DNA of 64,000 nt, taken from positions 1 to 64,000 of the forward strand of contig NZ_BSYI01000016.1 of NCBI RefSeq assembly GCF_030270585.1. Reading direction: 5' to 3'. This DNA comes from Paralimibaculum aggregatum (GTDB lineage Bacteria; Pseudomonadota; Alphaproteobacteria; Rhodobacterales; Rhodobacteraceae). A program made the position numbers and the translations under genes. Below are positions 31,054 to 46,360 of this stretch, piece after piece; the stretch's first letter is position 1, and each line of letters opens with the position of its first letter. The notes beneath the pieces were generated by a model. The model had not been told where the DNA came from. It saw only the letters and a list, made by a program, of their open reading frames with translations, and did not search any database.

Positions 31054-31064
31054 GTGCAGTTACC

Positions 31065-31441: not shown

Positions 31442-31915
31442 ATGGATATCATTTCCAAGAAGGATGGGCCGCGCCGCGAGGATGTCGAGGCAAAGCGGCT
31501 GATCAGGGACAACCAGAAGGCGATCACCCGCCTCGCCGACCAGTTCAGCAACGGCGCCTATTCGGCCTCGCGCAATGCCAAGCCGGAGAAGCCGAAGCCC
31601 AGCGGGCTGATGCTGCACGATCTCGGCCGCGGCAGTGGCACCAGCGAACCGCAGCCCTATATCCGCGTCAGTCCCAACGACCGGGTGGTGATGGTGGATC
31701 TCGAGACCAACCGGCAGATGCACATGCTCGGCGAGATCCGCCGCCGCGACGGCGTGCGGCGGCTGGCGCTGGCGACCGCGGCGAACGGTTTCATAACGCC
31801 CCTCGACGAGCCGCTCGCCGAGGCGCTGGCCGACCTCGAGGGCGCCGCGATCAACGCGGAGTTCACCGCCGAGACCCTGGCCGCGGAGATCGGCGCGCGG
31901 CTCGGCATTGCTTGA
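31442..31915 (+). CDS. Uncharacterised 157-residue protein, first gene of the activator unit
   Basis: ATG 31442 has GGGAGGA 7 nt upstream, and codon bias is normal for this genome. The protein is hydrophilic, without signal peptide or membrane helix. It has a basic N-terminal third (SKKDGPRREDVEAKRLIRDN), a Pro/Lys linker around residue 48-58, and a C-terminal part with RVVMVDLETNRQMHMLGEIRRRDGVRRLAL, split at the family's likely core strand. I do not recognise the family. Its position behind a perfect sigma-54 promoter, 72 bp before the activator gene and facing the prm operon, makes a role in sensing, tuning the activator or maturing the monooxygenase plausible, but this is inference only. 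Confidence 0.75.
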   Translation: MDIISKKDGPRREDVEAKRLIRDNQKAITRLADQFSNGAYSASRNAKPEKPKPSGLMLHDLGRGSGTSEPQPYIRVSPNDRVVMVDLETNRQMHMLGEIRRRDGVRRLALATAANGFITPLDEPLAEALADLEGAAINAEFTAETLAAEIGARLGIA

Positions 31916-31987
31916 CGTGAACCGTCCTGCACCGTCAGCTACCCGGTGCAGCCGAGCAATGAAGCTCCAACCGATGAGAGAATGCGC

Positions 31988-34069
31988 ATGTCCGGCCGTC
32001 CCGAAAACTCCGACAAGGAGCAGACTGCCGAGCGCGAGCAGGAGGACTCGGCGCAGATGAACCGTCACGTCCAGTACGACGAGCGCCAGGTGATGAAGGC
32101 CTGGGAGGCCTTCGTAGGCGGCGTGGCGAGCCGGCCGCGGCTCGAGACCAGCGTGCGCTCGCTGATCCATGATTCGTGGAGCCGCAGCGCCTCGCTCGGG
32201 ATCGACGCAGACACCTCGCGCGCGCCCATCGCAGGCGAGGAGGACCAGATCGAGCGGATCGAGCGGGAGAACGCCCGCCTGCTGCGGGCGGCGCAGGACA
32301 CCTTCGACCAGATCGGCCCGCTGCTGCACGATTCCAACGCGATGCTGATCCTCACCGACCACGAGGGCACGATCTGCAAGGCGATGGGCGACGAGGAGAC
32401 CCTGCGCAACGGCCGCAAGATCCATCTCGAGGTCGGCGGGGTCTGGAGCGAGACGGTGATCGGCACCAACGGCATCGGCACCGCGCTCAGCACGCGCCGG
32501 CCGGTCTTCGTGCATGCGGCGGAGCATTTCTGCCTCGGCATCAAGGCCTGGACCTGCGCCGCCGCGCCGATCCTCGACCCGCTCGACCAGAGCCTGCTCG
32601 GCGCGGTCGATCTCTCGGGCCCGACGCAGATCTTCCAGCGCCACAACTCGGCGCTGGTGGCCTCGGCGGCGCGCGCGATCCAGGCGACGCTGGCGCGGCT
32701 GCAGAAGGAGGAGCGCAAGCGGCTGCTCTCGCTGTTCCACGGCGCCACCCCGGCGCTGCGATCGGACGATGCCACCCTGCTGCTCGACCGGCAGGGGCGG
32801 ATCATCCATTTCAGCAATATCGACGGCGTCGGCGAGGCGGTGCGGAGCGGCCTCGCGGTGGGCCGGCGGCTGCTGCCGCTCTCCGAGGGCATGACCGATG
32901 CCGACATCGCCGCCGCGCTGCCCGAGGGGCTGCGGCCGGAGAACGCGGTGCCGCTCAGCCTCGACGGCGAGTTCGGCGGCGCGGCGCTGGTGCTGCGGCG
33001 CTCGGGCCGCAGGCGCGCCGCGAAGGACCATGCGGTGAGGCTCGCCGCGCGGCCCGACATCCCCGATGACGGCATCGCCATCGTCGGCCGCTCGGACGCG
33101 CTGCTGGAGGCGGTGGAGCTGACCCGGCGGGTGGCGCGGGCCAATGTCTCGGTGCTGGTGGAGGGCGAGACCGGCGTCGGCAAGGAGCTCTTCGCGCGGC
33201 TGATCCACAGCGAGTCCTGCGGCGCGGCGCGCGGGCCCTTCATCCCGGTAAACTGCGGCGCGGTCTCCAAGGAGCTGTTCGGCGCCGAGCTCTTCGGCCA
33301 TGTCGCGGGGGCCTATACCGGCGCCTCGCGCGAAGGCAAGCCCGGCAAGTTCGAGCTGGCCGACGGCGGCGTGCTCTGCCTCGACGAGATCGGCGAGATG
33401 CCGCTCGACCTGCAGCCCTACCTGCTGCGGGTGCTGGAGCAGCGCGCGGTCTACCGCATCGGCGACAACAAGCGCCGTCCGGTGGATGTGCGCCTGGTGG
33501 CGATGACCAACCGGGACCTGCGGGCGGAATCCGAGGCCGGGCGCTTCCGGCAGGATCTCTATTACCGCATCGGTGCGGTCACCATCCACGTGCCGCCGCT
33601 GCGCGCGCGCCGGGGCGATGTCGAGCTGCTGATCGACCATTTCAACCGCCGCGCGGTGGATGCCATGGGCACCAGCCCGCTGCGCTTCACCGATGCCGCG
33701 ATGGAGCGGCTGAACGCCTGGCACTGGCCGGGCAATGTGCGCGAACTGCGCAACGTGGTCGAACGGCTGCACCTGCTCGCGCGCCAGCCGGAGGTGCATC
33801 CGCAGGACCTGCCGCCGGAATTTCTCGAGGTCAGCCCATCCGCCGCGCCGAAGCCGGCCGGCGCGCAGCCGCCCGGCACCGCGCCCGCCGCCCCGGCGCC
33901 GGACGCCCATGCGCCCGGCAGCCTCGAGGAGAACGAGCGGCTGACCATCAAGCGGGTGATCGAGGAATCGAAGGGCAACATGACCCAGGCGGCGCGGACC
34001 CTCGGGATCTCGCGGCCGACGCTCTACCGCAAGATGCGCCTGCACGGCATCCGCCGCGTCTACGAATAG
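31988..34069 (+). CDS. AcoR-type sigma-54-dependent activator (GAF / AAA+ / Fis), probable regulator of the prm operon
   Basis: 693 residues. ATG 31988 is chosen because GAGAG lies 7 nt upstream; GTG 31946 and ATG 31982 are alternatives. Residues about 40-260 are an AcoR-like N-terminal region with DSWSRSASLGID and a GAF-type sensor (ILTDHEGTICKAMGD, GGVWSETVIGTNGIGTAL). The AAA+ domain shows Walker A GETGVGKELF, the sigma-54 contact loop as GAYTGA, Walker B VLCLDEIGEM and WPGNVREL. The C-terminal Fis helix-turn-helix includes GNMTQAARTLGISRPTLYRK. The family activates alkane, acetoin or ketone operons on effector binding. It faces the prm operon and both units have sigma-54 promoters, so it is the obvious candidate activator. 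Confidence 0.9.
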   Translation: MSGRPENSDKEQTAEREQEDSAQMNRHVQYDERQVMKAWEAFVGGVASRPRLETSVRSLIHDSWSRSASLGIDADTSRAPIAGEEDQIERIERENARLLRAAQDTFDQIGPLLHDSNAMLILTDHEGTICKAMGDEETLRNGRKIHLEVGGVWSETVIGTNGIGTALSTRRPVFVHAAEHFCLGIKAWTCAAAPILDPLDQSLLGAVDLSGPTQIFQRHNSALVASAARAIQATLARLQKEERKRLLSLFHGATPALRSDDATLLLDRQGRIIHFSNIDGVGEAVRSGLAVGRRLLPLSEGMTDADIAAALPEGLRPENAVPLSLDGEFGGAALVLRRSGRRRAAKDHAVRLAARPDIPDDGIAIVGRSDALLEAVELTRRVARANVSVLVEGETGVGKELFARLIHSESCGAARGPFIPVNCGAVSKELFGAELFGHVAGAYTGASREGKPGKFELADGGVLCLDEIGEMPLDLQPYLLRVLEQRAVYRIGDNKRRPVDVRLVAMTNRDLRAESEAGRFRQDLYYRIGAVTIHVPPLRARRGDVELLIDHFNRRAVDAMGTSPLRFTDAAMERLNAWHWPGNVRELRNVVERLHLLARQPEVHPQDLPPEFLEVSPSAAPKPAGAQPPGTAPAAPAPDAHAPGSLEENERLTIKRVIEESKGNMTQAARTLGISRPTLYRKMRLHGIRRVYE

Positions 34070-34111: not shown

Positions 34112-35155
34112 TCAGGGCACGATCACCCCGCGCCCGGCGAAGCGCCGGTTCTTGAAGTCGTCGATCGCGGTGTTGATGTCGTCCAGCTTGTACTCGCTGT
34201 AGTGCATCTTCACCTTGCCATCGGCATTCAGCTCCATCAGCTCCACCAGCTCGGTGTATTCGCCGACGAGGCTGCCGCCGATCTTGATCTCGTTGACCAC
34301 CAGCTCGACGGTGGGCACCTCGATCTTGCCGCCATATCCGACGACGATCAGCTCGCCGCCCTGGCGCAGCAGCTTCCAGCAGAGGTTCTCGGCGCCGAGC
34401 TCGCCGACGAAGTCGATCACCACATGGGCGCCGCCGCCGGTGATCTCCTTGACCTGCTCGATCACGTCAGGGCCGCCGTCGAGCACCACATGCGCGCCGA
34501 GATCCTTGGCCAGCTTCTGCGCCGCCGGCTCGCGGTCGATGGCGATCACCCGCCCGCCGCTGAGCTCGTTGAGGCTCTGCAGCGCGATGTGCCCGAGCCC
34601 GCCGATGCCGAGCAGCACGCACCAGGAGCCGGGGCGCAGCAGCCGCGCCGCCTTCTTCGCCGCGCGATAGGCGGTGATCCCGGCATCGGCCATCGGCGCC
34701 ACGTCGAGCGGCGTGACATTGGGGTTGAGCTTGATCAGCGAGCGCTCGTTGGTGAGGAAATACTCCGCGAAGCCGCCGTCGAGCCCGAGCCCGGGGAATG
34801 CCCCGTGCTGGCAGTACATGTCGTCGCCATAGCGGCAGCTCAGGCAGATGCCGCAGGTGCGCAGGGGATGGCAGATCACCGCATCGCCGGGCTTCACCGA
34901 GGTGACATTGCTGCCCACATCCTCGACCCAGCCGGCATTCTCGTGGCCCATCACATAGGGCAGCAGGTTGCCCTCGACATCCATGATGTCCTTCCAGACC
35001 CCCTCGATGATGTGCAGGTCGGTGCGGCAGAGCCCCGCCGCACCCACCTTCACCACCACCTGGTCCGGCGCCGTGATCGTGGGCGCCGCGACGTCCTCGA
35101 TCTTCAGCTCGACATTCATCGCGGGGTCGTACTCGTAGAGTCTCGCAGCCTTCAT
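34112..35155 (-). CDS. Zinc-dependent alcohol dehydrogenase of the prm operon
   Basis: 347 residues from ATG 35155. Medium-chain ADH: catalytic zinc ligands Cys43 (GLCRTDLH) and His71-Glu72 (GHENAG), structural zinc Cys101, Cys104, Cys107 and Cys115 (TCGICLSC, DDMYC), and the nucleotide fold LLGIGGLGHIALQ. It is the last gene of the prm operon, the place held by alcohol dehydrogenase genes in actinobacterial propane monooxygenase clusters, where the enzyme oxidises the alcohol made by the monooxygenase (2-propanol or a similar secondary alcohol). The substrate here is inferred from context. It follows the GroEL-like gene by 35 bp. Confidence 0.9.
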   Translation of the reverse strand: MKAARLYEYDPAMNVELKIEDVAAPTITAPDQVVVKVGAAGLCRTDLHIIEGVWKDIMDVEGNLLPYVMGHENAGWVEDVGSNVTSVKPGDAVICHPLRTCGICLSCRYGDDMYCQHGAFPGLGLDGGFAEYFLTNERSLIKLNPNVTPLDVAPMADAGITAYRAAKKAARLLRPGSWCVLLGIGGLGHIALQSLNELSGGRVIAIDREPAAQKLAKDLGAHVVLDGGPDVIEQVKEITGGGAHVVIDFVGELGAENLCWKLLRQGGELIVVGYGGKIEVPTVELVVNEIKIGGSLVGEYTELVELMELNADGKVKMHYSEYKLDDINTAIDDFKNRRFAGRGVIVP

Positions 35156-35190
35156 GGTCTGTTCCTTTCAGGATTTCGCAGCTGCCGGGG

Positions 35191-36825
35191 TCACTGCCGG
35201 CCGAGCAGCTCGGCGCCGCCGCCGAGTGCCGGGCCTTCGGTCGGGTCCTCGTCCTCCTCGAGATCGCCGATCAGCGTCTCGGTGGTGAGGATCAGCGTCG
35301 CCACCGAGGCGGCGTTGGCCAGCGCGCTGGTGGTCACGCGCACCGGGTCGACGATGCCGGCCTCGAACATGTCGCGGAACTCGCCGCGCGAGGCGTCGAA
35401 GCCGTGGCCCGGCGCGCCGCCGGTCACCTCGGCGACCACCGCGTTCGGCTCGGCGCCGGCATTGGCGGCGATCCGCGCCAGCGGCCGCGAGAGCACCGAG
35501 CGCACCAGCCGCACGCCCTCGGCGACGTCGCCCTCGACCTCCTCGAGCAGCGCGTCGAGCGCCGGGGTGGACTGCGCCAGCGCCGCGCCGCCGCCGGCCA
35601 CCACGCCCTCCTCGGCCGCCGCCCGCATCGCGTGCAGCGAGTCCTCGATGAGCTGGATCGTGCGCTTCTGCTCCACCGGGGTGACGCCGCCGGCATAGAT
35701 CACCGCGGTGCCGCCCGAGAGCTTGGCCAGCCGCTCGCGCAGCTTGTCCTGCTCGATGTTCGGCGGCGCCACGTCATACTGGCGCTGCACCTGGGCGCGC
35801 CGCGCGGCGATCGCCTGCGGGTCGCCGGCGCCGCGCAGGATGGTGGTGTGCGAGGCGGTGGTGCGCACCTGCTCGGCGGCGCCGAGCTGCTCGCGGGTGA
35901 TGTCCTCGAGCCGGCCGCCGAGATCGCGCGCGATCACCTTGCCGCCGGTGAGGATCGCCAGATCGTCGAGCATCGCCTTGCGCCAGTGGCCGTACTCGGG
36001 CGGATGCACCACGAGATACCGGCCGGGGGCGCCCTCGCCGAGCAGCGTGACCACGACGTTGGGCGCGGTCTCCTCGGCGATCACCAGCAGCGAGCGGCCT
36101 TCCTTGGCGGCGATCTCGCGGGCCGGGGCGAGCGCCTCGGGCGAGAGGATCTTCTGGTCGGTGAGCAGCACCAGCGGGCGCTCGAGCACCGCCTCCATCT
36201 TCTCCTGGTCGGTCACCATGTGGTGCGAGAGGTAGCCGCGGTCGAAGGACATGCCCTCGACGACGTCGAGCGTGGTCTCGGTGGTCACGCCGTAGTCGGT
36301 GGAGATCACCCCGTCGGCGCCGACGCGCATGTAGGCCTCGGCCACCAGCGCGCCGAGCTTGGGATCGGTGGCGGCGATGGTGGCCACCGCGGCGAGGGTC
36401 TTCTGGTCGTCGCGGGCGGGCTTGGCGCTGGCCTTCAGGGTTTCCACCACGCGGTTCACGGCGAGCTGGATGCCGGCGCAGAAATCCACCGCCTTGGTGC
36501 CGCGCTCGGTGGCATCGACGCCCTGCTGGATCATCGCGCCGGCGAGCACGATGGCGGTGGTGGTGCCGTCGCCGGCCACGTCGTTGGTCTGGGTCGAGAC
36601 CTCGCGGGCGACCTGGGCGCCCATGTTCTCGAAACGGTCCGGCAGCTCGATCTCGGAGGCGATGCTGACGCCGTCGCGGGTGATCAGCGGCGTGCCGACC
36701 GGCCGGTCGATCATCGCGTTCAGACCCTTCGGCCCGAGCGTCGGCTCGACGGCGGCGGAGAGCCGCTGCACCCCGCGGGCGAGCGCACGGCGGGCGGCGG
36801 AGTTGTGGAGCATAAGTTTGGGCAT
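35191..36825 (-). CDS. GroEL-like chaperonin dedicated to the monooxygenase
   Basis: 544 residues from ATG 36825. HSP60 features are complete: TLGPKGLNAMID, the ATP site DVAGDGTTTAIVLAG, and EEGVVAGGGAAL near residue 400. It diverges from housekeeping GroEL: it starts MPKLMLHNSAARRAL and ends GGGAELLGRQ instead of the GGM-repeat tail. In Mycobacterium and Gordonia clusters a GroEL-like protein (MimG) in the same position is needed to fold the hydroxylase large subunit. Here it lies between the DUF59 and ADH genes, so the same role is likely. No groES is next to it, so it would borrow the chromosomal GroES or work without one. Confidence 0.92.
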   Translation of the reverse strand: MPKLMLHNSAARRALARGVQRLSAAVEPTLGPKGLNAMIDRPVGTPLITRDGVSIASEIELPDRFENMGAQVAREVSTQTNDVAGDGTTTAIVLAGAMIQQGVDATERGTKAVDFCAGIQLAVNRVVETLKASAKPARDDQKTLAAVATIAATDPKLGALVAEAYMRVGADGVISTDYGVTTETTLDVVEGMSFDRGYLSHHMVTDQEKMEAVLERPLVLLTDQKILSPEALAPAREIAAKEGRSLLVIAEETAPNVVVTLLGEGAPGRYLVVHPPEYGHWRKAMLDDLAILTGGKVIARDLGGRLEDITREQLGAAEQVRTTASHTTILRGAGDPQAIAARRAQVQRQYDVAPPNIEQDKLRERLAKLSGGTAVIYAGGVTPVEQKRTIQLIEDSLHAMRAAAEEGVVAGGGAALAQSTPALDALLEEVEGDVAEGVRLVRSVLSRPLARIAANAGAEPNAVVAEVTGGAPGHGFDASRGEFRDMFEAGIVDPVRVTTSALANAASVATLILTTETLIGDLEEDEDPTEGPALGGGAELLGRQ

Positions 36826-36892
36826 GACTTCCTCCCATCGTCCCGAGGGACAATTGCTGTCGTTTGTCGGGGCGCCGGATGCGGCGCCGGTG

Positions 36893-37690
36893 TCAGATGC
36901 AGGCCGGCGGGGTCTGTCCCGGAACGCGGCCCAGCATGAAGTCCACGAGGCCGGGGCCGTCCTCGCCCAGCTCGGCCTCCTTGTAGCGGGTGGATTTCAG
37001 CCGGCGGCAGAGCGCGCCGTTGAACTCCATGTTGATGCGGACCTGGCGCAGCGTGCCGAGATAGTCCGCCATGCCGGCGGGCGTGAGCGGCGCCCCCTCC
37101 CAGGTGCGGAAGGCGAGGTCGGCGCCCTCGCGCGCGAGGCCCTTCGCCAGCAGCATCTCGCGATAGCGCGGCTTCTGCGCCGCCGCCTCGCCCTCGCCGA
37201 AATCGGCGAGATCGAAGGCGGCCAGCGTCATCGCGGCGATCTCCGCGTCGGTGCAGCCGGCGGCGCGCAGATGCAGCAGCACGCTCTCCTGCCGGCGCTG
37301 GAAGGCCTTGACCTCGAACTTCGCGCGCAGCGCCGAGAGATCGTCTCCGCTCGCCATGTCGCCGAAGCTGGCATCGAAGCCGGTGCCGTCGTTGACCCCC
37401 TCGTTCACCTTGTCGGCGAACATGTGATCCTGCAGGCAGACCCGGGCCTGCTCGACCCAGGGCAGCGCCTCGACCTCGCGGCGGATGTCCTCGGCCATCA
37501 GGTAGGCGAAGTTGGGCGAGCACCAGTAGGTCGGCAGGCGGAAGGCCACCTCGACGCTGCCGCCGGCGATCTCGATGCCGTCGACGAAACCCATGTCGGT
37601 GATCGGGTCGTCGAGCTCGGGATCGGTGACCCGGTCGAGGGCGCGCCAGACGGCGCGCCTCCGCTCCTCGGTTGCGGTGAGCCTCTCCAT
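36893..37690 (-). CDS. DUF59/MIP18-type metal-sulfur cluster assembly protein of the prm operon
   Basis: 265 residues from ATG 37690, starting 6 bp after the amidohydrolase stop. The N-terminal half has the DUF59 pattern: VTDPELDDPITDMGFVDGIEI, split around the DP-EL turn, and LPTYWCSPNFAYLMAEDIR with the family Cys followed by VEALPWVEQARV. It is longer than typical PaaD/SufT proteins (100-150), with an extra C-terminal domain of about 120 residues (LRAAGCTDAEIAAMTLAAFD). A gene of this kind stands beside the amidohydrolase in actinobacterial prm/mim clusters. A likely role is delivery of iron or Fe-S cluster to the hydroxylase or reductase; this is inferred from the family. Confidence 0.82.
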   Translation of the reverse strand: MERLTATEERRRAVWRALDRVTDPELDDPITDMGFVDGIEIAGGSVEVAFRLPTYWCSPNFAYLMAEDIRREVEALPWVEQARVCLQDHMFADKVNEGVNDGTGFDASFGDMASGDDLSALRAKFEVKAFQRRQESVLLHLRAAGCTDAEIAAMTLAAFDLADFGEGEAAAQKPRYREMLLAKGLAREGADLAFRTWEGAPLTPAGMADYLGTLRQVRINMEFNGALCRRLKSTRYKEAELGEDGPGLVDFMLGRVPGQTPPACI

Positions 37691-37695
37691 CGCCC

Positions 37696-38718
37696 TCACT
37701 CCGCGGCGAGGGTGACGGGGGTCGAGGCGAGGGCGCTGCGCTTGGCCTCGACGTCGACGTCGTAGATCCGCGCCGCGTTGAGGCCGAGGATCTTCTCCTT
37801 GACCGCCGGGGTCAGGTCGACGCCGCGCTCCTCGCGGATGTCCTCCGGCAGCTCGAAGGCCCAGAACTTCTCGACCAGCCATTGCGGCGTCCAGATCGCG
37901 TAGTCGGAGCCGAACAGCAGGTTGTCCTCGCCGACCCAGAACAGCAGCTCCGAGATCACCTCGGCGAAATAGCGCGGGCGCGAGTGGATGAAGGGCAGCG
38001 CCACCGCCAGCCCGCCATAGACATTGGTCTCCTGCACCGCGATCCAGCAGAAATCGTCGAGGCGCGGCAGGCCGCAATGCTCGACGATCCAGTTCAGGCC
38101 CTGGAAGTCGGTCGCGGCATTGTCGACATCATGGACGTCGAAGGCGTCCTTGTTGAGCGGCAGGATGGTCGGGCCCTTGTGGACATGGATGTTCCTGATG
38201 CCGAGCTTCTCGCAGAGCTCGAAGCAGCGATAGGCATCCGGGTCGTCGAGACGCCAGCCCTTGGAAGACCCGTTCCACTCGGCCGTGTACATCTTCACGC
38301 CCTTGATGTCGTAGGTCTCCTTCATGAAATGGATGTATTCCAGCGCCTTCTCGCCGTCGCGCGGGTCGAAGGAGCCGTTGACGATGAAGCGGTCGGGGAA
38401 CCGCTCCGCCACCGCGGCGTTGCGCTCGAGCGTGTTGAAGCCGTTCTTGTAGAAATCCTTGAGATAGGTCGACTGCACGATCGCCATGTCGTCCGGGCCG
38501 TCGACGAAGAGATCGCGGTAGAGATCGTCCTCGGAATACTTCTCGAACTTGGCCTTCTCCCAGAGCTGTTCCTTGGGGCTGAGGGCGGTGTGGTAGGCAT
38601 AGAAGCAGTCGATGAACTGCTTGCCATGCACGTTGCGCTGGTTCTCCGGGCTGCCATCCCAGAAGTGGATGTGCCCGTCGATCACGAAGATCTCCTTGCC
38701 GTCCGGTGTCTTGTACAT
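37696..38718 (-). CDS. Amidohydrolase-superfamily protein of the prm operon
   Basis: 340 residues from ATG 38718, with AGGAG upstream. It is a TIM-barrel metal hydrolase of the ACMSD/amidohydrolase 2 kind: metal motif VIDGHIHFWDG near the start, IHVHKG in the middle, IVEHCGLP, and LFGSDYAIWTPQ with the catalytic Asp. The same family occupies this position in propane monooxygenase clusters of Gordonia, Rhodococcus and Mycobacterium, where its chemical role is unclear; it may help maturation or process a product. It lies 113 bp after prmD across a strong hairpin and is followed at 5 bp by the DUF59 gene. Confidence 0.88.
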   Translation of the reverse strand: MYKTPDGKEIFVIDGHIHFWDGSPENQRNVHGKQFIDCFYAYHTALSPKEQLWEKAKFEKYSEDDLYRDLFVDGPDDMAIVQSTYLKDFYKNGFNTLERNAAVAERFPDRFIVNGSFDPRDGEKALEYIHFMKETYDIKGVKMYTAEWNGSSKGWRLDDPDAYRCFELCEKLGIRNIHVHKGPTILPLNKDAFDVHDVDNAATDFQGLNWIVEHCGLPRLDDFCWIAVQETNVYGGLAVALPFIHSRPRYFAEVISELLFWVGEDNLLFGSDYAIWTPQWLVEKFWAFELPEDIREERGVDLTPAVKEKILGLNAARIYDVDVEAKRSALASTPVTLAAE

Positions 38719-38793
38719 CGTTGGACTCCTTGAATGCGCCTCGGCTGGCCGTTCGCGCGGCGTTACTGGCTGGTGCGTTCCGGGTGGGATGGG

Positions 38794-38822
38794 GCGGGGG
38801 GCGACAGGGGGGAGCCCCCCGC
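38794..38822 (-). terminator. Intercistronic hairpin between prmD and the accessory genes
   Basis: GCGGGGGGC (38794-38802) pairs perfectly with GCCCCCCGC (38814-38822) across an 11-nt loop in the 113-bp gap after prmD. It may terminate or pause part of the transcription so that structural subunits exceed chaperone and accessory proteins. Confidence 0.6.
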
Positions 38823-38831
38823 CCGCGCGCG

Positions 38832-39200
38832 TCAGATGTACTCGAACACCTCGTCCATGTTTCCGAACAGGATCACGGTGTTGTCATCGACGCGCACCAT
38901 GCGGCCGTAATGCGTCGAGGTGTTCACCTCGAAGATCTCGGCCGTCATGTCCTTGCCGAGGAACTCGCTGATCTCGTCCATCTTGAAGATCAGCTTGCCC
39001 TCGCCATCGATACGGATCAGCGCAGGGTTGTAGGTGACCGTCACCTTCGGGTCCTGGGCCATGAACTCGGCGATGGCGCGGGCCTCGACGCTGTCGTTCA
39101 TGGTGACCCCGCACTGGTGCGAGATCGTCTGCTCGAAGGTGATGTCCTTCATCGACTTGAAGATGTTCTTGTTCGAGGAATCGCGTGCCGTGCTCGACAT
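38832..39200 (-). CDS. prmD: Monooxygenase coupling (effector) protein, MmoB/DmpM family
   Basis: 122 residues from ATG 39200, 17 bp after prmC. It matches the small cofactor-free effector proteins of soluble di-iron monooxygenases: GVTMNDSVEARAIAEFMAQ, VTYNPALIRIDGEGKL and EISEFLGKDMTAEIFEVNTS. The effector binds the hydroxylase and gates electron and oxygen chemistry at the di-iron centre. Its length is typical for PrmD/MimD. Fourth structural gene of the A-B-C-D order found in propane monooxygenases. Confidence 0.93.
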   Translation of the reverse strand: MSSTARDSSNKNIFKSMKDITFEQTISHQCGVTMNDSVEARAIAEFMAQDPKVTVTYNPALIRIDGEGKLIFKMDEISEFLGKDMTAEIFEVNTSTHYGRMVRVDDNTVILFGNMDEVFEYI

Positions 39201-39217
39201 GTCCTGTACTCCCTGTT

Positions 39218-40276
39218 TCAGCGGCTGAGGCCGAGCTCGCCGACGATGTGACCGATACGCTCCTGCGAGACGGCGCGGGCATCCTCGAACGAGATCGGCT
39301 TGGAATGGGGCTGCGACCAGATCGGCTGCAGCGAGGCGGCGGCCTTGTCGGCGAGCTCGCCGTGCAGCCGGAGCCAGGTCTGGAACAGGGCGCGGTTCTC
39401 GGCGCCGTGCTTCTCGTCGTTGGCGAGCAGGTACATCAGGTCGATCGTGTTCGCGAGGTTGCGCTCGTAATCGGCCTCGGCCGCCGAGATCACCGGCGGG
39501 GTGATGAAGTCGTTGTTGGCCGCCGCCGCCTGCATCAGGAAGCCGGAGCGGAACAGCTCGCCCACCAGCGGCTCGAACACGATGTTGATCGCGAAGTACT
39601 GCTCGAGATAGTCGGCCGTGCCCATGATGGTCTCGATCGCCTCGCGGGTCGGCTGCCAGATCGGGTCCTCGAGCCAGGCCTGCTTGCCGAGGTCATCGTT
39701 CCAGCCCTCGATGTCCAGGCCGATCTCGGCGAGGTAGAGGGTGATGTCCTGGGTCAGGCGCATCTTGTAGGACGAGTTGGTCAGCGTGGCGTTGTTGATC
39801 ATCTGGGTGTAGCCGTAGCGCTGCGCCTGCATCAGCGAGGTCGCGAGGCCGAACTCGGCGTGCTTCCAGGCGCCCAGATGGGTCTGCAGGATGCGGCACC
39901 ACACCTTGTCGAACGACCGCGGCGCGCCGGATTTCCGGGCGTTGGCGATGACGCTCTGCACCATCGTCTCGATCTTCGACTGGCGCTGGTAGTGGGTGCG
40001 CTCCCACTCCTGGTCGGGCGCGCGGAAGGCGTGCCAGTTGGAGCTCTGCGCCCGGGTGTTGTCCTTCACATAGGCGCCCTGGCCGTTGTTGAAGGAGATG
40101 ATCCAGTCCTGGATCAGGTAGCGCTCCGGATCGGGCTGCACATCGACCGTGACGTCCTCGTAATGGGTCGCCCGCTTGCCCCGCGGCTCGAAGTAGTTGT
40201 AGCGGCGGCTTTTCGAGCCGGCGAAGTTCGCGGCCCCCGCCGCGCCCGATCCGACCGAACTGGAAGTTGCTGGCAT
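39218..40276 (-). CDS. prmC: Propane-monooxygenase-type hydroxylase, beta (small) subunit
   Basis: 352 residues from ATG 40276. It belongs to the ferritin-like hydroxylase beta subunits: SRRYNYFEPRGKRATHYEDVT near the N-terminus (split by the conserved Gly-Lys), DPERYLIQDWIISFNNGQGAY and QAQRYGYTQMINNAT. The beta subunit keeps the fold but lacks the iron ligands and pairs with PrmA. Length and position between reductase and coupling protein are as in PrmC/MimC of actinobacteria. There is no signal peptide, so the complex is cytoplasmic. Confidence 0.92.
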   Translation of the reverse strand: MPATSSSVGSGAAGAANFAGSKSRRYNYFEPRGKRATHYEDVTVDVQPDPERYLIQDWIISFNNGQGAYVKDNTRAQSSNWHAFRAPDQEWERTHYQRQSKIETMVQSVIANARKSGAPRSFDKVWCRILQTHLGAWKHAEFGLATSLMQAQRYGYTQMINNATLTNSSYKMRLTQDITLYLAEIGLDIEGWNDDLGKQAWLEDPIWQPTREAIETIMGTADYLEQYFAINIVFEPLVGELFRSGFLMQAAAANNDFITPPVISAAEADYERNLANTIDLMYLLANDEKHGAENRALFQTWLRLHGELADKAAASLQPIWSQPHSKPISFEDARAVSQERIGHIVGELGLSR

Positions 40277-40334
40277 TGTGTTTTCTCCCTTGTATCTGGG
40301 TCTTCTGTGGGTTTCACACCCGGCGAATACGGGC

Positions 40335-41396
40335 TCAGTGCCCGCCGCTTTCGCCGGTTGTCGTGGTGAACTTGTCGAAGAAGATGCGATCGGTGTCGAA
40401 GTCCTGCATGAAGAGCACAGGCGTCAGCGCATCGATCATCGGTGGCGGACCGCAGGCATAGACGTCGCCCTCGCCTGCGATGCCGAGTTCCTTCAGCCGC
40501 TCGTCGACGGTCTCGTGGACGAAGCCGCGCGCGCCGGCCCAGTCGGTGTCGCCATTGGCATGGGACAGCACCGGAACGAACTGGACGCTCGGATTGGCCT
40601 CGGAGATCGCCGCCAGGCGGTCGGTGTAGAAGAGGTCGTCACGGGTACGCGCGCCGTAGAAGAAGTAGACCGGCCGGTCCTCCCCGCTGGCGAGGTGGTC
40701 GTGCAGGATCGACCAGACCGGAGACATCCCCGAGCCGGCGCCGACGAGGATCAGCGGTCCTTCCCGCTCTTCCCGTCGGAAGCACATCCCGTAGGGGCCC
40801 CGGACCCGGACGTCGGCTCCGATGCGGATTCCTCCGCTGTCGAGCTGGTTGGAGAACTTTCCGTCCGGGTACTTCTTGATGATGAAGGAGAGTTTTTTGG
40901 TTTCGCTCGGCGGATTTGCCATGGAAAACGAGCGCGTAATCGTCTCCCCTTCTTCCGTGGTGACCGTGATGTCGACATACTGACCGGCCCAGAATTTCAT
41001 TTCGCCATCGAGCTCGATCTCCACACCGCGGATATCGTGCGTCAGGCGCTCGAAACCGGTGATGCGGCCGTCGAAGTCCTTCACGGGGATGGATTTCGAC
41101 AGAACCTCCTCATCGAAGTTCAGAAGCTCGATCTCGAGGTCTTCCAGGGCCTGCGACCGGCACATCAGGATGTGGCCGGATTCCCGCTCGCCGTCGCTCA
41201 GGGCAAAGGTCGAATAGCGGGTCAGCTCGACCTCGCCGTCGAGCAGCACGCATTTGCAGGCCGAGCACTGGCCCTCCTTGCAGCCATGCGGCAGCGCGAT
41301 GCCCTGTCGGAACGCGGCGTCGAGAATGGTCTCCTCCTCCTCGACCTCGAATTCGACCCCGACCGGCTCCAGGCGTACCGTGTACGTCTCGCTCAT
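40335..41396 (-). CDS. prmB: Monooxygenase reductase, plant-type 2Fe-2S / FAD / NADH
   Basis: 353 residues from ATG 41396. The N-terminal ferredoxin domain has Cys39, Cys44, Cys47 (GCKEGQCSACKC) and Cys79 (ILMCRS) for the 2Fe-2S cluster. The FAD part has ITRSFSMANPP, and the NADH part has LVGAGSGMSPVWSIL and YACGPPPM. It moves electrons from NADH through FAD and Fe-S to the PrmAC di-iron hydroxylase. The gene lies 96 bp after prmA across two hairpins. Domain order and length match PrmB/MimB. Confidence 0.93.
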   Translation of the reverse strand: MSETYTVRLEPVGVEFEVEEEETILDAAFRQGIALPHGCKEGQCSACKCVLLDGEVELTRYSTFALSDGERESGHILMCRSQALEDLEIELLNFDEEVLSKSIPVKDFDGRITGFERLTHDIRGVEIELDGEMKFWAGQYVDITVTTEEGETITRSFSMANPPSETKKLSFIIKKYPDGKFSNQLDSGGIRIGADVRVRGPYGMCFRREEREGPLILVGAGSGMSPVWSILHDHLASGEDRPVYFFYGARTRDDLFYTDRLAAISEANPSVQFVPVLSHANGDTDWAGARGFVHETVDERLKELGIAGEGDVYACGPPPMIDALTPVLFMQDFDTDRIFFDKFTTTTGESGGH

Positions 41397-41424
41397 GATC
41401 TGCGGCCTCCCAATTCTCTCCCGT

Positions 41425-41480
41425 CCGGCGCAGCGGTTGCCGCGCCGGTATTGTGGGGAGGGACCGCGTGCGGCCCCTCC
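41425..41480 (-). other. Two hairpins in the prmA-prmB gap
   Basis: GGAGGGACCGC (41457-41467) pairs with GCGGCCCCTCC (41470-41480) with a single mismatch, and CCGGCGC (41425-41431) pairs with GCGCCGG (41442-41448). Both fold in the message just after prmA. They probably protect the prmA 3' end or attenuate, giving more hydroxylase than reductase. Confidence 0.6.
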
Positions 41481-41492
41481 GATGGATCCCGC

Positions 41493-43160
41493 TCAGTTGC
41501 AGGGGTTGATCGTGAAGCCCGCCCGATACTCGGCCATGTGCTTCTCGCGCTCCTCCGGCCCCATCTCCTGGAGCAGGGTGAGCGGCGACAGCAGGGTGTG
41601 GCCGCGCACGTCGTCGAGGGTCCACATGTCCTTGTCGTCGAAGCGCAGATGCGGCTGCGGGGTCAGGGTCTTGCCGTCGTCGCGGACGAAGTTGAGGTCC
41701 TTGATCGCGTCGGCCAGATCCCAGCCGTGATACAGCGTCTCCCACTCGCGCTTGCCGGAGAACCGGCCCATCGCGGGCGTCGGGCGGCCCTGGTACTCAT
41801 CGGAGAAGGCTTCCACCGCGGTCCAGCGGTCGAGCTCGTGGGCGAAGGTGTGCACCTTGCCGTCGATCTCGTCGGTGACGGTGTCCTCGCGGATGAGGCA
41901 GGGCACCAGGCAGCTCCAGCAGCGGTGCGGATAGACGTAGCCGGTCTCCTCGTTGAAGGTGATGACCTTCTGGCCCGGCTTCGAGAGCTTGGCGTACCAC
42001 TTCCAGAAGTCGCCGAACTCGGCGTACCAGCCCGGGTACTTGTGCTCGAACCACTCGAAGTCCTTCTCGGTCTGGGCCTCGATGCGCCAGAAGTTCACCG
42101 GCCAGCCGACCGCGAAGAACTGCGCCACCTTGTGCACGTAGCGCTTCTCGGTGATCCGCTTCCAGGCCTCCTGGACGTCGTCGTGATGGACCTTGATGCC
42201 GTATTTCTCGAGCGGCAGCATGTAGGTCCGGTAGTAGTCCTCGAAGATCCAGCGGTGCCACATCTCCGCGTAGGATTCCTTCTCCTTGTCGCGGTTGGTG
42301 GTGCCGTACTCGATGAAGGTGCCGATCGCGGCGTCGACGATGGCGTGGTTCTGCCAGAAGGCATAGCGCAGGTCGCGCTCGAGCAGCAGGTGGTTCTCGG
42401 GCTCCTTCAGCGCCGCCATCAGCAGCGAGTGGCCGTTGCCGATATGCCGGCTCTCGTCGGACTGCACCGAGAGGAACACCGTCGGCAGGGCATAGTCGCC
42501 GTTGCGCGCGGCCTCCGAGGGCATCGCCACGAAGAGCGTGTTGGTGAAGGCGGTCTCGGCCACCACGGTGAGGTACATGCAGGCGGCGGTCATGGTGTCG
42601 CCGGTGATGAAGCCCTCGCCGAACTGCCGGCCGATGGTGGTGGCATAGCACTTGCCGAAGGCTTCCTCGGTGATGTCGAAGCCGGCCGGGTCGATGTAGT
42701 TCTCCATGTACCACTTCTTCAGGTTCATCTGAATCGTGGAATGGCGGAACTCGTCGACCATCTGCATGGTGAAGCCGGTGCGCAGGTCCTCACCCGGCGA
42801 CAGCCGGGCGACCATGGCCATCGAGCGCGCCGCCGAGATCTCCGGGAACGGGATGATCGCCAGGAACAGCTTCATCCACTCGATCCAGCGCGGCTCGACA
42901 TTGCGGAACATGTCGCCGCGCAGCGCGGCGTCGAGCGCACCGTAGACGCGGTTGTCCTTCTCCTCCTCCATCGGGAAGTAGGAGCGCAGCACCTGCTTCA
43001 TCGGGTCCCGCGGCGCCTTGGTGATCTTGTAGTCCGTGGGGAAGGTGCTGGCCTCCTGCACATAGGAGGGGTTCCAGCCCAGGTCGGAGATCTTCTTCGT
43101 CGCCTCGCCCACGGAAATTCCGCGCTGCGACGTGATCTTGTTGAGCGTCAAAGACGTCAT
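41493..43160 (-). CDS. prmA: Propane-monooxygenase-type hydroxylase, alpha (large) subunit
   Basis: 555 residues. ATG 43160 has GGAGG 8 nt upstream; an in-frame GTG at 43175 lies too close to that site. All six carboxylate/His di-iron ligands of soluble di-iron monooxygenases can be placed: Glu107 (PFPEIS), Glu137 and His140 (DEFRH), Glu202 (AETAF), Glu236 and His239 (DESRH). Length (544-560 usual) and gene order A-B-C-D point to group 5 propane monooxygenases (PrmA/MimA), which hydroxylate propane, acetone, phenol or cyclic ethers in the cytoplasm. The real substrate range cannot be read here. Driven by a consensus sigma-54 promoter about 310 bp upstream. Confidence 0.93.
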   Translation of the reverse strand: MTSLTLNKITSQRGISVGEATKKISDLGWNPSYVQEASTFPTDYKITKAPRDPMKQVLRSYFPMEEEKDNRVYGALDAALRGDMFRNVEPRWIEWMKLFLAIIPFPEISAARSMAMVARLSPGEDLRTGFTMQMVDEFRHSTIQMNLKKWYMENYIDPAGFDITEEAFGKCYATTIGRQFGEGFITGDTMTAACMYLTVVAETAFTNTLFVAMPSEAARNGDYALPTVFLSVQSDESRHIGNGHSLLMAALKEPENHLLLERDLRYAFWQNHAIVDAAIGTFIEYGTTNRDKEKESYAEMWHRWIFEDYYRTYMLPLEKYGIKVHHDDVQEAWKRITEKRYVHKVAQFFAVGWPVNFWRIEAQTEKDFEWFEHKYPGWYAEFGDFWKWYAKLSKPGQKVITFNEETGYVYPHRCWSCLVPCLIREDTVTDEIDGKVHTFAHELDRWTAVEAFSDEYQGRPTPAMGRFSGKREWETLYHGWDLADAIKDLNFVRDDGKTLTPQPHLRFDDKDMWTLDDVRGHTLLSPLTLLQEMGPEEREKHMAEYRAGFTINPCN

Positions 43161-43161
43161 G

Positions 43162-43395
43162 TCATGAGCCTCCACTCATTTCTGCGCCGGCCACTGCCGG
43201 CAGCGGATTGACGGCGTGCTGAACCGTCGGCGTGAGTTCCGAATGACCGCCCGTCTCGCGCAGCACGGGCGCGGCATGGCAGCGGCCAGTCGAGTGGATC
43301 GAGGCAAAGGTTCCGGATCGCGTGCCCGGGCCGGCGGATGACCGGGCGCCCTGCCCGCCGCGCAGAGCACGCGCTGTCATCTCTGTCCGCTCCAT
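43162..43395 (-). CDS. Candidate 77-residue leader ORF directly before prmA
   Basis: ATG 43395 has GGGGGAG 6 nt upstream, among the best ribosome sites in the window, and the TGA (43164-43162) lies one base before the prmA ATG. It lies wholly inside the transcript from the sigma-54 promoter. The peptide is hydrophilic, rich in Ala, Gly, Arg, Ser and Thr, with one Cys; it has no signal peptide and is unlike any family I know. It may be a translational coupler or a small regulatory or maturation protein. Codon bias is weaker than in the prm genes, so it may also be only a leader. Confidence 0.5.
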   Translation of the reverse strand: MERTEMTARALRGGQGARSSAGPGTRSGTFASIHSTGRCHAAPVLRETGGHSELTPTVQHAVNPLPAVAGAEMSGGS

Positions 43396-43462
43396 GGCCG
43401 TCTCCCCCTTCGTTCTTGTGACACCCCTTTGCCGGGGTGGGCTTCTTCTGCGGGGATCAAGA

Positions 43463-43477
43463 GCAAGCGCCGTGCCA
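43463..43477 (-). promoter_or_regulatory. Consensus sigma-54 promoter of the prm operon
   Basis: Reading the minus strand, TGGCAC (43477-43472), GGCGC, TTGC (43466-43463) is a perfect -24/-12 pair; with flanks it reads TTGGCACGGCGCTTGCT, matching the extended consensus. Transcription would start near 43451, about 290 nt before prmA. Confidence 0.9.
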
Positions 43478-43561: not shown

Positions 43562-43709
43562 GTTTACATCTGTAATCCGGAATCGTTACGGATTGTATTT
43601 GGTCATTTGCACACAAATCATTGTGCAAGTGCGAACACTACATTGGTTTACATGAAGGGTCGAAGACACAGGCGTTACACGGCGTGACGCCATGCGTTAC
43701 GGCTGTAAC
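43562..43709. promoter_or_regulatory. Enhancer region of the prm operon, several repeated elements
   Basis: GTTTACAT occurs at 43562-43569 and 43646-43653, exactly 84 bp (eight turns) apart. ACATCTGTAA (43566-43575) is identical to 30976-30985. AATCCG-N9-CGGATT (43574-43594) and GTTAC-N4-GTAAC (43696-43709) are inverted repeats, and GCGTTAC is repeated at 43672 and 43694. The block is AT-rich compared with its surroundings and lies 85-230 bp upstream of the -24 box. It also lies upstream of the divergent gene at 43830. Confidence 0.65.
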
Positions 43710-43829: not shown

Positions 43830-44294
43830 ATGCCGAGCAGGGACGGACTGTCAGGAGAGGGCGAGGGCGGCCCCGGCGAGGTCGCCGGCAGCCTCGTCGC
43901 ACGGGCGCCGCAGGACGTGGTCTTCGTCATGCGCTTTCTCGGCGAGAGCCAGCTCCTGCTGCAGCGCCACTTCAAGGACTACATAACGGAGGAGCTCGGC
44001 AGCCGCGGCGCCAGCCACGACACCCACCCGCTGCTGCAATACTTCATCGACGTGCACGCGGCGGAGCTGCGCGACTTCGTCTTCACCGGGGTCTCGCTGT
44101 CGCGCCAGTTCCCGATCCGCGAGATCGAGGTGCTGACCGGCGACACCGGCAACGTGATGCGGGTCGATCTCTGGGATGCGCTGCGCGGGCATATCGAGAT
44201 GGCCGAGCGCAAGTTCCGCACCGAGGCGGAGGACCTGCCGCGGCTGCTCGCCGGGATCGAGGCCCGCGCCGGCCGCGGCGAGGGCGAGCGATGA
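43830..44294 (+). CDS. Uncharacterised 154-residue protein divergent from prmA
   Basis: ATG 43830 with GGAG upstream; codon bias is strong. The protein is soluble and mostly helical, with no signal peptide. Features: VVFVMRFLGESQLLLQRHF, HPLLQYFIDVHAAELRDFVF, FPIREIEVLTGDTGNVMRVDL and a basic/acidic helical tail. No family recognised. It shares the regulatory gap with prmA, and a poor sigma-54-like element (TGGCCC-N5-TTGA, 43775-43789) lies 41 bp upstream, so co-regulation with the monooxygenase is possible but not shown. Confidence 0.7.
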   Translation: MPSRDGLSGEGEGGPGEVAGSLVARAPQDVVFVMRFLGESQLLLQRHFKDYITEELGSRGASHDTHPLLQYFIDVHAAELRDFVFTGVSLSRQFPIREIEVLTGDTGNVMRVDLWDALRGHIEMAERKFRTEAEDLPRLLAGIEARAGRGEGER

Positions 44295-44310
44295 GCCGCG
44301 GCGCCGTCTC

Positions 44311-44577
44311 TCAGGCGTCCGGCCTGCCGGTGCCGCCCCAGAGCCCGAGGATCGCGCCCATGTCCTCGCGCATCGCCTTGTGCACCGCGCCGAGCAGCGC
44401 CGTCCGCTCGGCCTCGTCGAGCGCGCCGAGCGCCGCCTGCGCCGCGGCCATGCGCCCGGGGTCCGGCGCCCCGGCGGCCGCGCGCGCGGCCCGGGCGACG
44501 GCATGGTCCGCGCCGAGCCGCTCGGCCGAGACCGCCGCCAGCGCCGCAAAGAAGGTCTGTCCCGCCCCGTTCAGCAT
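44311..44577 (-). CDS. Uncharacterised 88-residue helical protein
   Basis: ATG 44577 on the minus strand, with GGGAGG 9 nt upstream. Nearly every third codon base is G or C in this frame, supporting real coding. The protein is Ala-rich and helical (TFFAALAAVSAERLGADHAV, MAAAQAALGALDEAERTALL), soluble, and ends with a short Gly tail. It is convergent with the 154-aa gene (16 bp apart) and divergent from the 105-aa gene at 44662. No family recognised. Confidence 0.6.
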   Translation of the reverse strand: MLNGAGQTFFAALAAVSAERLGADHAVARAARAAAGAPDPGRMAAAQAALGALDEAERTALLGAVHKAMREDMGAILGLWGGTGRPDA

Positions 44578-44661
44578 GTCCGCCGCACCTCCCGCGCCCC
44601 CTGCCGCCGGGGGGCCTCCCCGGCGCGGCGCGGATCATGGCCCCCGTTTCGGGAGAACACA

Positions 44662-44979
44662 ATGACCGATCATCCCCGTCCGATCCCCGATCTGATGACC
44701 GAGCGCATGGCCCTCGTGGCCCGCATCTCGGAGCTCAACGCCCGGCATCTGCGCCTCTGCCAGGTGGCCGGCGGCACCGAGATCGACCTCGCCCGCCACG
44801 CCCGCGACGCCGCCGATCCGGAGACGGAGGCCGACGCCGCGGCGGCGGCGGACGACATGGCGCGGGGCGAAGCCGCCCGGCGCGACCTCGACGACTGCGA
44901 GCGGCGGATTGCCGAGACCGAGGCGGAGATCGACCTGATCGACCGCGAGATCGCCGCCGCCGCCAACATGAAAGGATGA
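44662..44979 (+). CDS. Small coiled-coil protein
   Basis: 105 residues from ATG 44662, with GGGAG upstream. Almost entirely helical with heptad-like spacing, first around MTERMALVARISELNARHLR and then after an acidic Ala-rich middle in ARRDLDDCERRIAETEAEID. No signal peptide or membrane segment. It lies 5 bp before the beta-propeller-like gene and probably works with it. No specific family recognised. Confidence 0.7.
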   Translation: MTDHPRPIPDLMTERMALVARISELNARHLRLCQVAGGTEIDLARHARDAADPETEADAAAAADDMARGEAARRDLDDCERRIAETEAEIDLIDREIAAAANMKG

Positions 44980-44984
44980 CAGGC

Positions 44985-46100
44985 ATGGATCAGGAAACCC
45001 TCGCGCCGCCGAGCCTCTTCGACCTGCTCGGACGCGCCTGGCAGCGCCCCGCGCGCATCGCCGCGGCGGTCTTCGCCGCCGATGGCGGGACGGTTGCGTT
45101 CCTCGACGCCGATGGCGGGCTGGTGCTGGCCCCGGCGGCCGACCCGGAGCCGGCGGCGAAGCGGATGCGCATCGACATCGAGACCGCCCGCACGACGATC
45201 CGCCCGCGGGCCAGGCCCCCCGCCCCGCCGGCCCCGGCCGACGGGATCGCCGGGGCGGTGACCGCGATCGCCCCCTTCGGCGCACGCGAGATCGCCGCCG
45301 GCACCGCCGATGGCCAGCTCTACCGCGTGACGCCGCGGGGCCAGGCGGTGCGGCTGGCGCCGGCGCTGCCGGGCGAGGTGGTCGCGCTCGACGGCCGGGC
45401 CGGGCTGCTCGCGGCGGCGGCGGAGGCCACCGCGCTGGTGCTGGCCGGGGAGGCCGAGCCGCTGCGCCTCGCCCATGAACACGCGCTCGGCGCGGCGGCG
45501 CTCTCGCCCTGCGGCGGCTGGCTCGCCTGCGGGCACATGGCCGGGATCACGCTGCACCGGCTGGACGGCAGCGCCGAACGCCGCGAGATCGGCTTTCCCG
45601 GCGGGCCGACGGCGCTGGCCTGGAGCCCGGACGGCACCTGGCTCGCCGCCCCGCTCGGCGCCGGCGGGGTGCAGCTCACCCGCCCGGAGGACGGCAGGAC
45701 GGCCCATATCGCGCGCTTCCCCGCGCCGGTGCGCGACACCGTCTGGAGCGGCGCGGCGGGGGCGCTGGTGACCTCCGGCGCGTTCCGCGTCTCGGCCTGG
45801 ACGATGGACCCGCCGCCGCTCGACGGCGACATGTCGGGCGCGCTGGCCACCGGGCGCCCCGGCCTCGTGCCGGTGGCCGCGGTCACCGCCCATCCCGGGC
45901 GGGATCTGGTGGCCGCGGGCTATGACAGCGGGCTGACGGTGATCGCCCAGCTCGGCCAGCGCGACGAGCTGATGCTGCGCCCCGATACCGGCGGCGCGGT
46001 GACCGTGCTCGCCTGGTCGCCGGATGGCGACCGCCTGGCGCTCGGCGATTCCGCCGGCCAGGCCGCGATCGCCGAGTTCCCGCCGCAGATGTTCAAGTGA
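44985..46100 (+). CDS. WD40/beta-propeller-like protein
   Basis: 371 residues from ATG 44985. After a 75-residue Pro/Ala-rich N-terminal part come repeated blade-like segments: GAVTAIAPFGAREIAAGTADG, split between blades, ALSPCGGWLACGHMAGI, TALAWSPDGTWLAAPLGAGG and TVLAWSPDGDRLALGDSAG. The AWSPDG-LA pattern is that of WD40 repeats, giving an incomplete-looking six- or seven-bladed propeller. No signal peptide, so a cytoplasmic scaffold is likely. It is flanked by two small hydrophilic proteins on the same strand, suggesting a three-gene complex. Function unknown. Confidence 0.75.
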   Translation: MDQETLAPPSLFDLLGRAWQRPARIAAAVFAADGGTVAFLDADGGLVLAPAADPEPAAKRMRIDIETARTTIRPRARPPAPPAPADGIAGAVTAIAPFGAREIAAGTADGQLYRVTPRGQAVRLAPALPGEVVALDGRAGLLAAAAEATALVLAGEAEPLRLAHEHALGAAALSPCGGWLACGHMAGITLHRLDGSAERREIGFPGGPTALAWSPDGTWLAAPLGAGGVQLTRPEDGRTAHIARFPAPVRDTVWSGAAGALVTSGAFRVSAWTMDPPPLDGDMSGALATGRPGLVPVAAVTAHPGRDLVAAGYDSGLTVIAQLGQRDELMLRPDTGGAVTVLAWSPDGDRLALGDSAGQAAIAEFPPQMFK

Positions 46101-46150
46101 GCCCGACGACGGACCGCACGACCGATACAACCAAGCAAGGGAGACGACCC

Positions 46151-46360
46151 ATGACCGACCAGACCACAGCCGCCGACACCGCCGCCCCGGCCCGGCTCAC
46201 CCCCGAGGAGGAGAGCAAGGACGCCTTCTTCCAGCGCGCGGCGATGCTCGCCGAGGAGATGGTGGCCGCGCACGGCAAGGAGTTCGCGATGGGCACGCTG
46301 GTGCTCGCCGCCCGCTGGATCGCGGAGAACCGGCTCGGCAGCTCGGGCCGCGCCAACTGA
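46151..46360 (+). CDS. Small conserved-looking helical protein
   Basis: 69 residues from ATG 46151, with AGGGAG 8 nt upstream; an in-frame GTG at 46097 is less likely. An acidic Thr/Ala-rich N-terminus is followed by an amphipathic helical part, ESKDAFFQRAAMLAEEMVAA and EFAMGTLVLAARWIAE. No membrane segment long enough to span. Last gene before a strong hairpin, 50 bp after the beta-propeller gene. No family recognised. Confidence 0.65.
   Translation: MTDQTTAADTAAPARLTPEEESKDAFFQRAAMLAEEMVAAHGKEFAMGTLVLAARWIAENRLGSSGRAN

Follow-up and report, generated by a model that had tools for sequence, protein, structure and literature searches.

The 64,000-nucleotide stretch of DNA analyzed here, which we call the window (positions 1 to 64,000 of contig NZ_BSYI01000016.1 from Paralimibaculum aggregatum, Rhodobacteraceae), contains eight open genes on its minus strand between positions 34112 and 43160. 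Each encodes the Pfam domain expected of a propane-monooxygenase-type (prm) operon, as an earlier note on this sequence had claimed. That note listed the eight genes correctly but overlooked the linked genes at 43929-46360, the activator gene at 31946-34069, and the promoter elements upstream of prmA. The principal features are given below. Counts of loci refer to 80 named prm loci, selected as the top 80 among at least 590 genome matches and therefore skewed toward near relatives.

41493-43160, minus strand: PrmA, hydroxylase alpha subunit of 555 amino acids (PF02332, E = 1.3e-59; six di-iron ligands aligned; placed by tree)
40335-41396, minus strand: PrmB, reductase with 2Fe-2S, FAD, and NAD domains (Fer2, FAD_binding_6, NAD_binding_1; four cysteines)
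39218-40276, minus strand: PrmC, hydroxylase beta subunit (PF02332, Phenol_Hydrox, E = 6e-74)
38832-39200, minus strand: PrmD, coupling protein (MmoB_DmpM, E = 1e-26)
37696-38718, minus strand: Amidohydro_2 metal-dependent hydrolase (PF04909, E = 1.4e-50; 77 of 80 loci)
36893-37690, minus strand: DUF59 (FeS_assembly_P) protein (PF01883, E = 6.6e-16; 75 of 80 loci)
35191-36825, minus strand: GroEL-like chaperonin, Cpn60 (PF00118; 77 of 80 loci; the other three are short contigs)
34112-35155, minus strand: zinc-dependent alcohol dehydrogenase, ADH (ADH_N, ADH_zinc_N; cysteine positions and GHE)
43462-43477, minus strand: predicted sigma-54 promoter of prmA, TGGCACG-GCGC-TTGCT (12 of 12 positions matched; -317 from the PrmA start)
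43564-43575, no strand assigned: palindrome TTAC-N4-GTAA upstream of the prmA promoter, predicted activator site
43697-43708, no strand assigned: second TTAC-N4-GTAA palindrome upstream of the prmA promoter, predicted activator site
31946-34069, plus strand: GAF-AAA+-Fis sigma-54 activator, start codon uncertain (Sigma54_activat, GAF, HTH_8; GAYTGA loop intact)
44976-46100, plus strand: WD40 beta-propeller companion of 374 amino acids (PF00400; 79 of 80 loci; structure model with a mean predicted local distance difference test score, pLDDT, of 95.5)
46151-46360, plus strand: h69, a companion of 69 amino acids with the aligned consensus SKDxFF ... HGKDFAMGALVLAARWIAE (79 of 80 loci; its occurrence follows that of PrmA across genome samples)

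The six di-iron ligands of PrmA, described as intact in the earlier note, all aligned to the alpha chain of soluble methane monooxygenase (sMMO; partial chain, PDB 4gam) as E107, E137, H140, E202, E236, and H239, with the sMMO ligands as reference. The four Fe-S cysteines claimed for PrmB were likewise found (C39-x4-C44-x2-C47 ... C79), and its FAD and NAD domains are also present. The best NCBIfam match of PrmD was NF045941 (MimD; E = 8.6e-31), at 106.4 bits versus a cutoff of 150. The genes run in the order alpha-reductase-beta-coupling (A-B-C-D) with a GroEL-like gene in the cluster, and an ADH match of at least 60% identity was found in 47 of the 80 loci. Among the accessory proteins, the DUF59 protein is a probable metal-center maturation factor, and the chaperonin is probably dedicated to PrmA.

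Phylogeny placed PrmA among the group 5 soluble di-iron monooxygenases (SDIMOs), as had been predicted, and apart from the phenol, toluene, alkene, sMMO, and group-6-like rows. The tree had 39 rows, with several long-branched outgroup rows and Rhodococcus JS3073 as the single actinobacterial group 5 row. Specifically, PrmA fell in a clade of 28 rows (support 99/99) that included Rhodobacterales, Rhizobiales, Azospirillum, Caballeronia, and the propane monooxygenase (PrMO) of Methylocella tundrae, and this proteobacterial clade was sister to the Rhodococcus row (100/99). Identity to PrmA was 90 to 95% over the best 80 matches, 77% for M. tundrae, and 65% for Rhodococcus JS3073. A review describes Methylocella PrmA as grouping with diverse organisms that are not known for growth on alkanes (PMC7660913). 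Because of this tree position, these identities, and the review, we regard PrmA, on its sequence, as an ordinary member of the known proteobacterial group 5 branch that contains the Methylocella PrMO. The suggestion of an under-studied alphaproteobacterial branch was supported in this way, although that branch is already in print.

Known clusters resemble the one in the window to different degrees. The PrMO clusters of Methylocella (M. silvestris Msil_1651-1648 and that of M. tundrae) are alike in belonging to group 5 and to the same clade, in the adjoining GroEL-like and sigma-54 activator genes, and in a sigma-54-like promoter upstream (11 of 12 positions). Unlike the window, M. tundrae had no match to the amidohydrolase, DUF59, WD40, or h69 genes within 14 kb of prmA, and its GMC/VOC module adjoins prm, whereas in P. 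aggregatum the corresponding modules are at other genomic locations. Actinobacterial prm/mim clusters (Rhodococcus, Gordonia, and Mycobacterium) share the PrmABCD order along with a hydrolase, a metal-sulfur protein, an ADH, and a GroEL, and several have a Fis-type regulator, according to PMC4428276; the Rhodococcus locus has the same order. The earlier equation of the two gene orders held for PrmABCD and for the eight functions, but GroEL precedes ADH in the window and the reverse is found in actinobacterial clusters. The Rhodococcus locus also had no match to WD40 or h69.

The evidence for regulation lies upstream of prmA and beyond the distal end of the operon. The prmA promoter is the sole -24/-12 site without mismatches in the window; sites with at most two mismatches numbered 10 versus 12 expected, so that as a set they are attributable to chance. 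In the upstream regions of 92 deduplicated loci (L001, L084, and L086, which duplicate the window, L016, and L053, respectively, were removed before counting), 34 reached a score of 12 out of 12, 19 reached 11, and 39 scored lower. Mononucleotide shuffles scored 11 in 0.3% of cases and 12 in 0 of 1,900. The TTAC-N4-GTAA palindrome occurred three times in the window versus 0.01 expected, twice before prmA and once at 30964-30975, and it was present in 47 of the 92 upstream regions versus a control mean of 0.3 and a maximum of 1 (first-order Markov, 50 rounds). The genome encodes a single full-length RpoN, on another contig (C46), and no RpoN match was found in the window. Given the -24/-12 element, the activator with its GAYTGA loop, the palindromes, and an rpoN in the genome, prm is very probably controlled by sigma-54. 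No activator segment was obtained for Rhodococcus in the loop alignment.

Two further genes accompany prm with great regularity. WD40 and h69 were each missing from one locus only (L024), where the contig ends just 2.8 kb upstream. Their arrangement relative to prm was divergent in some loci and co-directional in others, so shared synteny alone does not account for the linkage. To follow them beyond the named loci, we used a family sample of 198 genomes, including that of P. aggregatum, and a class sample of 385. PrmA orthologs of at least 90% identity were present in 7 of the 198 family genomes, including its own (9 matches in total, two of them at 24 to 25%). The h69 profile matched eight, namely these seven and G133, in which h69, WD40, the activator, and h157 (a small gene described below) share a contig of 5,068 bases. 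In the class sample, PrmA of at least 74% identity was found in 3 of 385 genomes (20 matches in total), and h69 in the two with at least 82% but not in the one with 74%. The WD40 model is a confident propeller; among the 50 PDB rows shown, its matches were generic propellers only. A literature search limited to the pairing of WD40 with propane monooxygenase found no paper, and both companion genes seem to be undescribed.

It could be argued that the WD40 and h69 genes are hitch-hikers in these genomes and contribute nothing to PrMO, since the propeller resembles only generic ones among the rows shown. We consider this quite improbable in view of their presence in 79 of 80 loci in varying arrangement and orientation, and of the recovery of h69 from each sampled genome with PrmA of at least 82% and elsewhere only from G133, where it lies beside WD40 and the activator. 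They may instead be dedicated helpers for assembly or activator signaling. Even less probable, to the point that we give it hardly any weight, is a recently transferred actinobacterial cassette, a reading that takes up the earlier suggestion of transfer. The same eight functions do occur in actinobacterial clusters (PMC4428276), and the spread is patchy, with orthologs of at least 90% in only 7 of 198 family genomes. However, close orthologs are plentiful in Alphaproteobacteria, which supply nearly all of the nearest kin (90 to 95%, versus 65% for Rhodococcus), and PrmA sits in its proteobacterial clade rather than nested among actinobacterial sequences, of which the tree has one group 5 row. 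Composition points the same way. When eleven genes were compared with 20 flank genes, GC content at third codon positions (GC3) was within the flank range (0.905 to 0.981) for ten of the eleven. The exception was prmB (0.841), but in 92 of 95 loci prmB has a lower GC3 than the mean of prmA and prmC, which makes the low value a property of the gene, perhaps reflecting lower translation of the reductase. The same recurrence ruled out prmB as a recombined gene. Exchange among proteobacteria, in contrast, is likely, because PrmA identity barely drops across orders (92 to 95% to Rhodobacterales and 90 to 94% to Rhizobiales in the 80 loci) whereas RpoB identity does (79 to 82% and 73 to 74%, respectively). 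The RpoB values come from the 41 genomes of kept loci used for RpoN and RpoB searches (L035 not among them), many of which are drafts. A gammaproteobacterial PrmA, from an uncultured Granulosicoccus, was also placed among roseobacters in the tree. Such exchange would be old enough for all of the examined genes but prmB to have reached the GC3 range of the flanks.

With respect to substrate, the genome contains two modules with acetol-dehydrogenase-like GMC genes, one of them on the window's own contig. Its GMC (C16:84831-86399) is 78% identical to the one beside prm in Gemmobacter fulvus, and the module (80469-90375) includes E1 alpha and beta, E2, lipoyl, lipoyl-ligase-type, and Gld3 genes, two glyoxalase-domain genes, and a sigma-54 activator. 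This module, which lies outside the window, contains a large part of what is found next to prm in G. fulvus. The other GMC (C15:17380-18936) is 72% identical to the prm-linked GMC of M. tundrae and has RHH, VOC, and Gld3 genes in the M. tundrae order, without the cytochrome and with an added muconolactone-isomerase-family gene. Because of these two modules, one on the same contig, we favor acetone or 2-propanol as the substrate and suggest that the reactions of the enzyme include the conversion of acetone to acetol. Less probable, yet not to be dismissed lightly, is a true propane (gaseous alkane) monooxygenase serving growth on propane or butane. Of 25 positions near the di-iron site, including the six ligands, 24 are the same in PrmA and in the group 5 enzyme of Rhodococcus JS3073; the set was chosen by sMMO numbering. 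The genera abundant in heavy DNA after incubation with 13C-propane included Rhodobacter and Rhizobium, with no connection made to prm (PMC9213486). Still more doubtful is a physiological role in oxidizing an aromatic compound (phenol to hydroquinone) or a cyclic ether. The muconolactone-isomerase-family gene in the C15 module would fit this, although the catabolic neighbors identified are of ADH, GMC, and glyoxalase types. Aromatic and cyclic-ether activities are features of some group 5 enzymes.

Considering these observations together, we think it probable that the genes form a functional operon that encodes a group 5 SDIMO from the proteobacterial PrMO branch and is switched on by sigma-54. 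The activator would sense a C3 inducer, bind the palindromes, and open the promoter at 43462-43477 with the single full-length RpoN, and prmABCD-amidohydrolase-DUF59-groEL-adh would be transcribed as one unit. PrmB would hand electrons from NADH to the PrmA/PrmC hydroxylase, with PrmD coupling, while the GroEL-like protein would fold PrmA and the DUF59 protein would aid metal insertion. PrMO would then oxidize propane and/or acetone (the latter to acetol), ADH would take the alcohol, and the GMC/Gld3 acetol-dehydrogenase-like and glyoxalase-like modules elsewhere in the genome could process acetol further. WD40 and h69 would assist in assembly or in signaling by the activator. Several results weigh against parts of this scheme. 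No match to WD40 or h69 was found in the prm loci of Methylocella, Azospirillum, or Rhodococcus, so these genes are not essential to all PrMO. The M. silvestris enzyme is reported to yield mostly 1-propanol from propane (PMC7364539), which argues against a purely 2-propanol/acetone route. Neither GMC module had a palindrome or a sigma-54 site scoring at least 11 that would point to co-regulation with prm. Lastly, a search for acetone carboxylase gamma gave no match in the genome, but its control also matched nowhere, so that the result is uninformative.

In relatives, sigma-54 is often encoded at the operon itself. An rpoN gene lay inside the prm cluster in 40 of the 80 loci (for example, L096:6497-7783), and those with a named order were all Rhodobacterales. 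A prm-local rpoN was present in 25 of the 41 genomes, and in 17 of these 25 it was the only full-length rpoN found. The local activator carried GAFTGA in all 17 single-rpoN genomes, and this motif was absent from each of the 13 non-local activators inspected among 218 matches, which include fragments and other AAA proteins. The promoter differed as well: the pattern TGGCA[CT][GA]-N4-TTGC[AT] was found in 36 of 46 loci without a local rpoN versus 4 of 43 with one (37 and 5 under a looser pattern), a count that also leaves out L082, L083, and L087, whose 1.5-kb flanks cannot reveal a local rpoN. All but seven of the 43 loci could be scored for residue 4 of the RpoN box. Where this residue was Val, Ile, or Met, the fourth base of the -24 element was A (23 of 23 loci scored); where it was Thr or Ala, the base was C in 12 of 13 and T in 1 of 13. 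Locus L053 falls within the Val clade, and its box residue is Ala and its promoter base C. Members of the Gemmobacter and Paracoccus clade keep a canonical RpoN box but differ in the helix-turn-helix and the -12 element.

These patterns led us to a reading that we hold only tentatively and that could well fall either way. Proteobacterial PrMO operons may be self-contained cassettes with WD40 and h69 as undescribed obligate partners; in Rhodobacterales they may have a private sigma-54, reduced from a global to a one-operon factor, with the promoter re-coded through RpoN-box residue 4 (Thr to Val, Ile, or Met) from TGGCAC to TGGAAC. The companion and sigma-54 patterns are correlations over related genomes. 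Against a role for the RpoN box, L060, one of the seven unscored loci, combines a Val box with two candidate promoters, of which the higher-scoring has C at the fourth base and the other, at the position usual among its kin, has A. The RpoN tree also suggests few independent shifts (one large clade, one reversal, and one further clade), and a single origin of the local rpoN genes was recovered in 28% of bootstrap trees. The RpoN of P. aggregatum grouped with those of Amaricoccus and Rhizobiales (99/100), outside the local-rpoN radiation. Judged by its genes, the window is in the unshifted state, with a shared RpoN whose one gene is located elsewhere.

A parallel is Cereibacter sphaeroides, which has four rpoN genes. 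According to PMC11999139, the copies studied each have their own activator, RpoN1 and RpoN2 discriminate between promoters, and position -11 matters for telling these apart. Its RpoN targets are nif, flagellar genes, and xrpA, whereas in the relatives examined here rpoN sits inside a catabolic cluster, often as the sole copy, and the window has no local rpoN. In Paracoccus aminophilus, the only rpoN is plasmid-borne, which was taken as a sign of global regulation (PMC3925955). This rpoN, on pAMI4, sits in a prm cluster (L095:7834-21040) that has an IS5 element between prmB and prmC. Literature searches on rpoN with Roseobacter, Rhodobacterales, propane monooxygenase, RpoN-box promoter specificity, and RpoN2 or specialized RpoN showed no title on a prm-local sigma-54 among the matches listed, and a prm switch-on system with its own sigma factor in some relatives seems to be undescribed.

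While the enzyme adds one member to a known branch, the interest of the operon lies in the companions and the sigma-54 system. Should the companions matter, two further genes would have to be supplied when alphaproteobacterial PrMO is expressed for work on ketones, ethers, chlorinated alkanes, or C3 chemistry. If sigma-54 has become private to prm, relatives would offer a natural switch of RpoN-box specificity with a matching promoter change, and unexplained rpoN copies of Rhodobacterales, such as the one on the P. aminophilus plasmid, would gain a proposed role.

The remaining features near the operon are less widely conserved:

43929-44294, plus strand: h120, an all-helical protein of 121 amino acids (41 of 80 loci; model mean pLDDT 79)
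44311-44577, minus strand: h88, 88 amino acids (27 of 80 loci)
44662-44979, plus strand: h106, 105 amino acids, coiled-coil-like from weak Pfam hits (37 of 80 loci)
31442-31915, plus strand: h157, 157 amino acids, upstream of the activator, without a Pfam family (41 of 80 loci)
31039-31054, plus strand: sigma-54-like site (11 of 12 positions), 75 bases after the palindrome at 30964-30975

The last site and its palindrome could serve h157 and the activator, which would then be autoregulated. We propose this tentatively, because such a pair was found before the activator in 0 of 15 relatives with enough flank (one had a site scoring 10). Branched-chain-type ABC transporter-like genes, judged by eye, occupy 25974-30891 and end just before this palindrome. 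On the other side of the operon, h120, h106, WD40, and h69 are divergent from prmA, and h88 is on the other strand. The h120 model had no match in the PDB at an E value of 0.001; the alignment contains invariant His, Asp, and Glu residues, and metal binding is possible. TRAP-type transporter genes at 46419-49207 adjoin h69 and are probably unrelated to prm, since the DctM of the window matched no other prm locus. A possible leader open reading frame (43162-43395, with its ATG at 43395) ends where prmA begins.

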